Assembly (NCBI GenBank): GCA_027067975.1
Contig: JAMOUS010000178.1
Coordinates: forward strand, 1 to 36,853
Direction of reading: 5' to 3'
DNA: 36,853 nt
From: Bacteroidales bacterium
Lineage (GTDB): Bacteria > Bacteroidota > Bacteroidia > Bacteroidales > VadinHA17
Position numbers and translations under genes: made by a program. Shown piece by piece: positions 5,600 through 31,051 of this stretch. Position 1 is the first letter of the stretch, and each line of letters begins with the position of its first letter. The notes beneath the pieces are model-generated. The model had not been told where the DNA came from and did no database searches. It was given only the letters and a program-made list of their open reading frames with translations.

Positions 5600-5957
5600 G
5601 CGATCCGCCTTTGCCAAGACAAAAGACAATAAGGAAAAAGAAAGAGAAAAGGGTTCAGGCATTGTCATGAGGCAACTCGATACCCTGACGCTCTGCCTTC
5701 GGCTCCGGTCAGGGTCAATTCCCCCGGCGGATTCCGCTGCGGCTACGTCTCGCACGAGGCGGGTGTCACTGACTTTAGGCACTTGTAACTTATCACTTTA
5801 GTCACTCACTACAGTACCCTGACGCTCCACTTCGTTCCGGTCAGGGTCAATTCCACCAACGGATTCCGCTGCGGCTTCGCCTTGCAGAATGCGGGTGTCA
5901 TTGACTCGAAGTACTCCAGGCCTTTGCAGTACTCCAGGCACTAAAAAACTTTCATTT
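5600..5957 (-). repeat. Composite dispersed intergenic element, copy 1 (inverted orientation; two H1-H2 hairpin units in tandem, truncated H3)
   Basis: Reverse complement matches copies 2 and 3: AGTTACAAGTGCCTAAAGTCAGTGACACC, TGACAATGCCTGAACCCTTTT, GGCAAAGGCGGATCG; hairpins at 5715-5772, 5682-5715, 5847-5904, 5816-5847. Confidence 0.85.
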
Positions 5958-14034: not shown

Positions 14035-14193
14035 TCAGTTGTTAGTTCTTAGTATCGAGTATCGAGTTCTGAGTATCGAGTATTGAGTATTGAGTATTGA
14101 GTATTGAGTATTGAGTATCGAGTATCGAGTTTTGGCATTTATCTTTTTTGTAGAACCTGGAACCTGGAACCTGAAACCTGGAACCTGGAACCC
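14035..14193. repeat. Heptamer tandem arrays between cysD and cysN: (GAGTAT[T/C])n followed by (AACCTGG)n
   Basis: GTATCGAGTATCGAGTTCTGAGTATCGAGTATTGAGTATTGAG... then AACCTGGAACCTGGAACCTGAAACCTGGAACCTGGAACC. Confidence 0.93.
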
Positions 14194-15210: not shown

Positions 15211-16053
15211 TTACTCTACCTCTTTTTTCAGGAGGACAGTACATGTCTTATTGGGCTTGGAAAAATCGGTCGACCAGTAGAGCTCGTAACAGATCCTTAG
15301 CGAATCGGTACAGCCGCACCATGTTCCCTCTCCTCCCGTCCAGTAATGGTTCCGTCCCGGGAGGGTCATCCCCTGGTAATCATTCTCGATAATGATCTTC
15401 CCCCGCAGCAGGTTGACATAAAGGAGCACATCCCCTTCGTTGCCTTGTCCTTCCACGAACCTTTCCCCCCAGGCGTCGAAGACCTTTTTGAGGAAAGGCG
15501 GCTCGTAGATGCCGCCGGAGTCATTCGGGTGGCGGGCTGCTTTCACGCGCAGGACGTTCCCGCTGTGGAGGGTGTCCACTTCGATGACCAGCGAAAGGGT
15601 CGTATCGCTGTCGCCAAACTCTTCTCCTTTCCAGATACCGGCGAAATCCTGCAGGCTCCAGGGGCAGAACTTCCGCAAGATGACCCGCAGCGAATCGGGT
15701 TGCGACTCATGACCCGTGGAAGAGGTCTCTATACAGACGAGCCAAGCGGCGGTATCGACGGAGGCCTGGTGCCAGCGAACCATCACGCGGTTGGGGTAGT
15801 TGGTATCGGGCACGGTGATGTCGGCAGGCCAGCCTACGGCCCAGAACTTGTACTTGGACCCGGCACGGTAGGCCACTTTATATTCCAGGAACTCCAGTCC
15901 AGAGGCAGCCACATCCTGCGGCCCCCGAAAATCCAGCACCACCGGGATGATATCTTTCGGTTTATCATCCTTTTTATCTTTCTTACAGGCTACGAAACCC
16001 ACCCCCATCAGGAGCACCAGCACCGCTATCTTCATTATTCCATGCTTCATCAT
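15211..16053 (-). CDS. Putative lipoprotein B, paralogue of the protein at 19988-20830
   Basis: Lipobox GVGFVAC-KKDKKDDKP; shares PDSLRVILRKFCPWSLQDFAGIWKG, GNEGDVLLY and YWTGGEGTWCGCT with lipoprotein A. Confidence 0.85.
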   Translation of the reverse strand: MMKHGIMKIAVLVLLMGVGFVACKKDKKDDKPKDIIPVVLDFRGPQDVAASGLEFLEYKVAYRAGSKYKFWAVGWPADITVPDTNYPNRVMVRWHQASVDTAAWLVCIETSSTGHESQPDSLRVILRKFCPWSLQDFAGIWKGEEFGDSDTTLSLVIEVDTLHSGNVLRVKAARHPNDSGGIYEPPFLKKVFDAWGERFVEGQGNEGDVLLYVNLLRGKIIIENDYQGMTLPGRNHYWTGGEGTWCGCTDSLRICYELYWSTDFSKPNKTCTVLLKKEVE

Positions 16054-19987: not shown

Positions 19988-20830
19988 TCACTGTTTGGTG
20001 ATCTCCACGTGGCTCTTACGGTTGGGCTTCGAGAAGTTCTGCGACCAGTACATGTAGAAATCGATGCTCATGCTTGCGGTACAACCCGACCATGTACCTT
20101 TGCCTCCCGTCCAGTAGTCATAGGGACCCGGGAGGGTCTGGCCCCAGTAATCATGAGCAATACTGATCGAGCCGTCGAGCAGGCCGATGTGAAGCAGCAC
20201 GTCGCCTTCGTTCCCGTGACCTTTCTGGAAGGTTTCGCCCCATCCGGCATATACCTTGGAGAGGAAAGGCGGATTGAAGGCATCGCCCACCGGCACAGCC
20301 TTGACACGCAAGACATTGTCGCCGTCATCAGCATTGTGAACGATGGTAACGCTCAGGTCGTCCACCTTGCTGTCGCCCGTTTCCGTTCCTTTCCAAGTTC
20401 CGACGAAATCGTCGATGCTCCAGGGGCAGAAACGTTTCAGGATGACCTTCAGGGAATCGGGATCGGAGGTGATCCCACCATGAGTCGTCTCGGTCACGAT
20501 GAGATAAGCAAAGGTATCGACACTACTCTGTGCCCAGGTCACATAAACGACGTTGGGATAGATCGAATCCTGCTTGATGGTAGCCTCATAGCCGTACGTT
20601 GACCAGTGGTAGGTCGAGCCGCCACGGTAAGCGACACTGTACTTGACAGCGGCCAGGCCGGAAGCGGAAACCTCGGTCGGCCCCGTGAAGTTGAGGATCT
20701 TGGGAATGACCTTGTTCCAGTCATAGTTTTCCCTTGCCTTCTCTACGTCGGACTTGGTACAACCGACGAAAAGGAAGGAGACCATGACCATCAGGGCAAA
20801 TAAAGAGGTGATAATTGTTCTATTCTTCAT
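19988..20830 (-). CDS. Putative lipoprotein A, SusCD-associated
   Basis: MKNRTIITSLFALMVMVSFLFVGC-TKSD lipobox; PDSLKVILKRFCPWSIDDFVGTWKG; immediately follows susD. Confidence 0.85.
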   Translation of the reverse strand: MKNRTIITSLFALMVMVSFLFVGCTKSDVEKARENYDWNKVIPKILNFTGPTEVSASGLAAVKYSVAYRGGSTYHWSTYGYEATIKQDSIYPNVVYVTWAQSSVDTFAYLIVTETTHGGITSDPDSLKVILKRFCPWSIDDFVGTWKGTETGDSKVDDLSVTIVHNADDGDNVLRVKAVPVGDAFNPPFLSKVYAGWGETFQKGHGNEGDVLLHIGLLDGSISIAHDYWGQTLPGPYDYWTGGKGTWSGCTASMSIDFYMYWSQNFSKPNRKSHVEITKQ

Positions 20831-27438: not shown

Positions 27439-27584
27439 TTGAGTTGTGAGTTAGTGAGTATTGAGTATCGAGTATTGAGTATTGAGTATCGAGTATTGAG
27501 TATTGAGTATCGAGTATTGAGTATCGAGTATTGAGTATCGAGTATTGAGTATCGAGTATTGAGTATTGAGTTTTGAATATCGAG
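27439..27584. repeat. Heptamer tandem array GAGTAT[T/C] (about 20 units) abutting the ftcD start codon
   Basis: GAGTATTGAGTATCGAGTATTGAGTATTGAGTATCGAG... read directly. Confidence 0.95.
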
Positions 27585-27864
27585 TCAGTGACACCCGGCT
27601 TTCGCGAGCCGGAGGCGATGCGAAAGACGCTGGTGGAACTGACCCTGACCGGAGCCGAAGGCGGAGCGTCAGGGTATCGAGTATTGAGTATCGAGTTGAC
27701 AATGCCTGAACCCTTTTATCTTTTTCCTTTTATCTTTTGTCTTGTTTTAGCCTTCCTCGTCCGCCGTAGCTTTAGCGAAGGCAGATCGCATTATCGCTTT
27801 ATCGCCTTATCGCCTTATCGCCTTATCGCGTCCGCCGTAACCCGGTTGACCGGGCGAAGGCGGA
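27585..27864 (+). repeat. Composite dispersed intergenic element, copy 2 (H1, H2, T-rich core, H3, octamer array, H3')
   Basis: H1 27585-27642, H2 27642-27675, TTGACAATGCCTGAACCCTTTTATC at 27696, H3 27760-27785, (NTTATCG-type octamers) 27786-27829, H3' 27831-27864. Confidence 0.88.
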
Positions 27865-30634: not shown

Positions 30635-31051
30635 AGTGCCTAGAGTACTTGGAGTACTTGGAGTGCCTAGAGTTGGAAGTTACAAGTGCCTAAAATCAGT
30701 GACACCCGGATTCTGCAAGGCGAAGCCGCAGCGGAATCCGCTGGTGGAACTGACTCGATACTCCATACTCCGAACTCGATACTAAAAACAGTTGCCTTTT
30801 GCCTTCCTGGCATAGTTCCGAGTTCGGAGTTCCGAGTATCGAGTTGGGAGTTGACAATGCCTGAACCCTTTTATCTTTTCCCTTTTATCTTTTGTCTTGT
30901 TTTGGCCTTCCTCGTCCGCCGTAGCTTTAGCGAAGGCGGATCGCATCATCGCATCATCGCATCATCGCATCATCGCATCATCACTTCATCACTTCATCGC
31001 TTTATCGCTTTATCGCTTTATCGTGTCCGCCGGAGCCTTGGCGGAGGCGGA
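30635..31051 (+). repeat. Composite dispersed intergenic element, copy 3 (9-mers, H1, inverted heptamer arrays, T-rich core, H3, octamer array, H3')
   Basis: 9-mers 30635-30676; H1 30696-30753; ACTCGAT-type then AGTTCCG/AGTATCG-type heptamers 30752-30855; H3 30915-30940; CATCATCG/CTTTATCG octamers 30941-31022; H3' 31026-31051. Confidence 0.9.

Follow-up and report, generated by a model that had tools for sequence, protein, structure and literature searches.

Several described systems resemble the hairpin analysed here. REP sequences of the GTAG superfamily, with their RAYT (TnpA-REP) proteins, are short, palindromic, intergenic, multi-copy repeats that often lie after genes or in arrays, and their mobility is presumed to proceed through single strands (PMC3733652, PMC6006769). 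CGTC-tagged REPs occur in Bacteroidetes and Chlorobi, among others, without a dedicated transposase; their hairpin has an 8–9 bp stem, a 4–5 nt loop and the CGTC tag (PMC3733652). The ends of IS200/IS605 elements and of their non-autonomous derivatives retain the left target, produce no duplication and carry a hairpin near the end, with an A/T-rich target. A kept left target, a left-end hairpin and exact joining are traits of both the IS200/IS605 and the REP systems (PMC6006769). Integron attC sites have a folded-strand layout with a spacer and extrahelical bases.

The hairpin, H1, lies in a 36,853-nt stretch of DNA from a Bacteroidales bacterium (the window), which is contig C178 of a 2.79-Mb draft genome (93% complete, 311 contigs). 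H1 shares the features listed above for the REP/RAYT, IS200/IS605 and attC systems, single-strand mobility being presumed in its case as well. The H1 family apparently consists of undescribed small mobile DNA elements in several bacterial phyla.

Results

Structure of H1 and H2 in the window

An earlier note had described four copies of H1, each 58 nt long with a 38-nt core, and all four are present: copies 3 (30696–30753) and 2 (27585–27642) on the forward strand, and copies 1a (5847–5904) and 1b (5715–5772) on the reverse strand. In forward-strand order the 5' half consists of T-x-A-R-T, GA, a 4-bp stem and an upper stem of ~10 bp with a small tip; the 3' half continues with the upper stem, a 2-nt bulge, the 4-bp stem, GA and A-Y-T-x'-A. 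The lower stem, TxART/AYTx'A, is followed by a GA/GA internal loop. The bulge, which the earlier note missed, is constant and separates the 3' arm of the upper stem from GGTG. The 4-bp stem is GACT/AGTC, with CACC/GGTG and GTCC/GGAC also found in the window's own genome. The foot pair x-x' occurs in all four Watson-Crick forms (C-G, T-A, A-T and G-C) and is complementary in 101 of the 116 loci listed from the search described below.

The base changes on which the earlier note had based its proposal of selection on folding could all be read in these copies. Within the core, pair 4-31 changes from A-T to C-G, 7-28 from C-G to T-A, 14-20 from G-C to C-G and 8-27 from T.G to C-G, while in the arms TCAGT/ACTGA becomes TCAAT/ATTGA; copies 2 and 1a lack pairing at 3-32, as had been reported. 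Copy 3 has the form TCAGT-GA-CACC, a 10-bp stem and a 3-bp tip with the 2-nt 3' bulge (left junction AAAAT^CAGTGA), and copy 2 has an alternative core with a CTTTC/GAAAG stem (left junction CGAGT^CAGTGA). The left junctions of copies 1a and 1b are CGAGT^CAATGA and AAAGT^CAGTGA, respectively. RNA folding yielded z-scores of -6.4 (copy 3), -4.8 (copy 2), -3.3 (copy 1a) and +0.1 (copy 1b). As single-stranded DNA, folding was strong for copies 3 (-5.0) and 2 (-5.4) and weak for copy 1a (-1.6). Copy 1b had been called more degraded, and its canonical fold is indeed poor, but it is a chimera of two subfamilies, with the 5' arm CGCCTCGTGC from one and the 3' arm GCGGAATCCG from another. Several other copies in the genome have a chimeric form like that of copy 1b, which is a recurrent chimera rather than a product of simple degradation.

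A second hairpin, H2, is situated immediately 3' of H1, with the sequence TCCCGA..TCGGGA in most taxa and CCCTGAC..GTCAGGG in the window's genome. H2 directly follows copy 2 (27643–27674, forward strand; CCCTGACCGG..GCGTCAGGG, in the same place as TCCCGA..TCGGGA of other taxa), copy 1a (5817–5846, reverse strand) and copy 1b (5683–5714, reverse strand). A perfect 5-bp H2 arm was found in 59 of 97 loci compared to 5 control windows. Units 1a and 1b form a head-to-tail pair (5683–5904, reverse strand), and arrays of 2–4 units recur in the genome.

The pair formed by copies 1a and 1b is flanked by genes for an MscS-type channel and a PfkB kinase, both of which run in the opposite direction to the hairpins. 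Copy 2 is upstream of, and antisense to, a formiminotransferase-cyclodeaminase gene, and copy 3 is 96 nt past an Omp85-domain gene on the same strand. This mixed orientation relative to genes weakens a pure 3'-UTR RNA role in the window's own genome.

Other repeats were noted in the window. Tandem arrays of a 7-nt unit (GAGTATC/TTGAGTA) occupy 14044–14131 and 27439–27585; the latter, on the forward strand, ends in GAGT and abuts the left end of copy 2, and the GAGT of such arrays often precedes H1 in other copies of the genome. An 8-nt unit (ATCGCATC/ATCGCCTT) is repeated in tandem at 27785–27829 and 30940–31016, beside a third hairpin, GTCCGCCGTAGC..GCGAAGGCGGA, and 28 of 60 related genomes have matches to pieces of this region. 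Downstream of copies 2 and 3 is a 164-nt composite repeat (27669–27832 and 30824–30987, 87% identical) that includes the T-rich stretch ATGCCTGAACCCTTTTATCTTTTTCC. A 93-bp stretch at 15607–15699 and 20369–20461 (73% identity) lies inside two neighbouring genes, which are probably paralogues.

Covariation within the genome and across phyla

BLAST identified 47 H1 places in the draft genome and a covariance model at least 47; the two lists, merged by hand, gave roughly 65. Subfamilies exchange whole stems (GATTC/GAATC, CTTTC/GAAAG and CCTC/GAGG). Among 30 distinct copies 94.8% of cells pair, compared to only 28–50% in slid-register controls, and double changes occur at 15 of 22 pairs (shuffled mean 9.2; as high in none of 500 shuffles).

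As the copies within this genome are mutually related, independent copies were sought elsewhere. Of 118 genomes searched with covariance model R1, which was built from own-genome copies only, 18 related genomes other than the window's own contained the H1 structure (lowest E-value 1e-10), with stems that were quite different and a layout that was unchanged. A search pattern (TGAGACT ... AGTCGAAYTNATCCC) derived from these matches was run on GTDB representative contigs and identified at least 116 loci. The matches listed include Bacteroidales, Flavobacteriaceae, Maribellus, Ignavibacteria, Marinimicrobia, Omnitrophota and Deltaproteobacteria (Syntrophaceae among them), with single matches labelled Anaerovibrio and Patescibacteria. 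No match was found on plasmids, phages or viral contigs. A scan for phylum prevalence (3/393) scored only 14 candidates per genome and provides no estimate of prevalence.

Positions that the pattern prescribes cannot vary among its matches and carry no weight here; the pattern left the upper stem, bulge and foot pair unconstrained. In 109 distinct cores 92.5% of cells pair, with 443 double-change cells compared to a shuffled mean of 143 (maximum 189). Pairing of the upper stem is 87% with the 2-nt bulge and 37–53% in any other register. We also carried out a tree-aware test on 101 cross-phylum copies, in which the substitutions of each column were replayed randomly on the branches of a FastTree tree to generate 150 null alignments; this is a home-made null in the manner of R-scape and not R-scape itself. 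The top 12 of all column pairs were exactly the 12 variable H1 pairs. E was below 0.05 for nine of these pairs and for no column pair outside the structure. The outcome that would have refuted the earlier note, an absence of covariation above phylogenetic expectation, did not occur with these 101 copies, and from these data we conclude that selection on folding is supported.

The complete element and its empty sites

In Maribellus the whole unit is ~170 bp long and contains four hairpins, of which H1 forms the left end. Two more hairpins follow H1-H2 in Maribellus, GWF2_38_335 and Marinimicrobia, giving a unit of ~166–215 bp, and the right end of the complete unit reads AGTTCATT or GTCATT. Identical units occur with different flanks, with 4–43 matches per genome. 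Five Maribellus insertions are matched by an empty site in a sister genome from which exactly the element, 166–177 bp, is absent, with only a 1-nt ambiguity. The insertion point follows TTAAAT^ (or TTAAA with one shared T), and none of these five insertions has a target duplication when compared with its empty site. Comparison of the sister sequences thus establishes that the H1 family, in its Maribellus form, consists of precise mobile elements.

The empty sites come from the Maribellus form only, and the window form differs from it in the 4-bp stem and in the sequence after H2. That the window's own copies moved as the Maribellus form did is inferred, and these copies are perhaps relics that no longer move. 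In L248 a right end is fused directly to a left end, and this tandem junction, AGTTCATT-CAGTGAGACT, is only suggestive of a single-stranded circular intermediate. An origin of H1 as a group II intron relic was rejected, as the empty sites place the boundary before TCAGTGAG and not at a GTGYG start. Downstream repeat copies in L052, L061, L071 and L118 often lack the 5' half of H1 and retain the 3' half and H2.

Target sequence and gene ends

Position -2 of the left flank is T at 116 of 118 places, with A/T-rich sequence ahead of it, TAAAT and AAAGT being commonest. The left junction was no more than 8 nt from a same-strand stop codon in 28 of 97 loci, compared to none of 97 at an opposite-strand gene start (p=7e-9). 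We infer that AAR-T, in which the last codon of a gene, for lysine, is followed by the initial base of its stop codon, is a good target, and that the first bases of the element complete the TAA or TGA of the host gene. Nine copies are at the FCIGK* end of mnmE (L051, L057, L061, L074, L128, L152, L210, L218 and L221). Only one of about 22 readable mnmE 3' ends in relatives is occupied (G010), so an ancestral mnmE element was rejected, and the single occupied end points to recurrent targeting or patchy loss.

Two other loci were noted. In three Deltaproteobacteria (L118, L174 and L178) H1 lies between xerC-like and hslV genes, and the stems at this fixed locus differ by compensatory changes; this H1 is possibly domesticated. 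L189 contains two near-identical large tandem genes; ahead of each lie H1 copies and a pair of small toxin-antitoxin-like genes.

Discussion

The most likely explanation for these results, which we consider probable without regarding it as settled, is that the H1 hairpin forms the left end of a small REP/MITE-like element that is non-autonomous and undergoes single-stranded DNA transposition by an enzyme acting in trans. The folded strand would present the lower stem, the GA/GA loop, the 4-bp stem, the 2-nt bulge, the upper stem and the tip. An enzyme that binds this shape would cut after the T forming the hairpin foot, and the element would insert downstream of an A/T-rich target that ends in T (for example TTAAAT, AAAGT or a stop codon) without duplicating it. 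The kept left target, the left-end hairpin and the exact joining, as in IS200/IS605 and REP systems, make single-strand transposition in trans the best supported reading; the single-strand chemistry itself is inferred and has not been demonstrated. The absence of a target duplication is an argument against DDE transposases, and the five insertions therefore speak against an enzyme of this type. The empty sites also favour single-stranded DNA over RNA, and single-stranded DNA of a mobile element is the folded form that we favour as the object of selection, without excluding a role as RNA. Four observations stand against transposition in trans as the main reading: no Y1 gene was found in the draft genome, the 50 Y1 loci of relatives and H1-rich genomes described below are without a genuine flanking H1, the empty sites are confined to the Maribellus form, and the xerC-hslV locus is conserved with compensatory changes, a hint of some role at that site, possibly that of an RNA.

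Selection for pairing could instead have acted on RNA, with H1-H2 being a structured element of 3' untranslated regions (a stabiliser, or an RNase or protein site) that was spread by unrelated duplication. Strong same-strand placement at stop codons, the RNA z-scores of -6.4 and -4.8, the changes at the fixed xerC-hslV locus and a number of G.T cells somewhat above that of A.C cells (50 versus 31) are all consistent with such a role. We nevertheless regard it as unlikely, given that window copies 1a, 1b and 2 are antisense to neighbouring genes, that no Rfam family is matched, that mobility is precise and without target duplication, and that some copies lie beyond intrinsic terminators and hence outside the transcript (6 of 111 by a strict rule versus 10 of 666 control windows, p=0.018). 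An attC-like folded site for a tyrosine recombinase, in integron-like cassettes without genes, would account for the R-like stem, unpaired spacer, L-like stem, extrahelical bases and terminal stem-loop, for the head-to-tail arrays and for the lack of target duplication. Copies at the 3' end of mnmE also fit, this being a known tyrosine-integrase target (SGI1 at trmE; PMC8409611). The attC core-site consensus is absent, with GTTRRRY/RYYYAAC in none of 109 cores, no integron integrase exceeded the curated cut-off (TIGR02249) in any of nine H1-bearing genomes, and no recombinase recurs beside the 116 copies listed, which leaves this explanation with little to recommend it.

Movement of H1 as a classical REP by TnpA-REP appears equally improbable. 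H1 meets the REP definition of multi-copy extragenic palindromes, its intergenic hairpins occur in many copies and arrays with none on plasmids, phages or viral contigs, and Y1 genes are present in all six H1-rich genomes tested. However, a GT[AG]G tag 0–2 nt 5' of the foot was found in none of 109 distinct copies, no RAYT gene adjoins H1, and the 58-nt hairpin with its GA/GA loop, second hairpin and preferred orientation to gene ends differs from REP sequences. H1 is also longer than the hairpins of CGTC REPs, from which it differs in its internal loop and bulge, and tag-like letters (CGTC, TGTC or CCTC) are found in only 4 of 109. No Y1 gene (PF01797) was detected in the window's draft genome, and REPtron-like flanking by genuine H1 copies was absent from all 50 Y1 loci examined in relatives and H1-rich genomes; one motif match near a Y1 locus in L230 looks like chance. 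With respect to IS200/IS605 elements, insertion 3' of a short target without duplication is satisfied by the five empty sites, whereas a Y1 HUH transposase encoded by or related to the element is not; no transposase-bearing copy was found, and the foot of H1 includes the target T itself. Across the 116 loci listed, no transposase, integrase or recombinase recurs beside H1.

No Rfam family passed its gathering threshold for the window, a check that the earlier note had proposed, or for seven cross-phylum loci. A description of the H1 family was not found in the open-access literature; subscription papers were outside this search, and an earlier description is not excluded. We conclude that H1 elements are REP-like, single-strand-style mobile repeats outside any named family. 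More tentatively, and with rather low confidence, they could represent an undescribed cross-phylum superfamily of single-strand elements with its own fold (GA/GA loop and bulge), a targeting of gene 3' ends that often completes the stop codon, and an enzyme other than those of the RAYT, IS200 and integron systems.

For few of the common short palindromic repeats have recognition structure, target rule and mobility all been demonstrated; for the H1 family, sequence data alone provide all three. The family offers a way to test which enzyme mobilises orphan REP-like repeats, and in what form (DNA, RNA or both) the hairpins of such repeats function. It is also relevant to annotation, as the left end of H1 gives host genes their stop codons.
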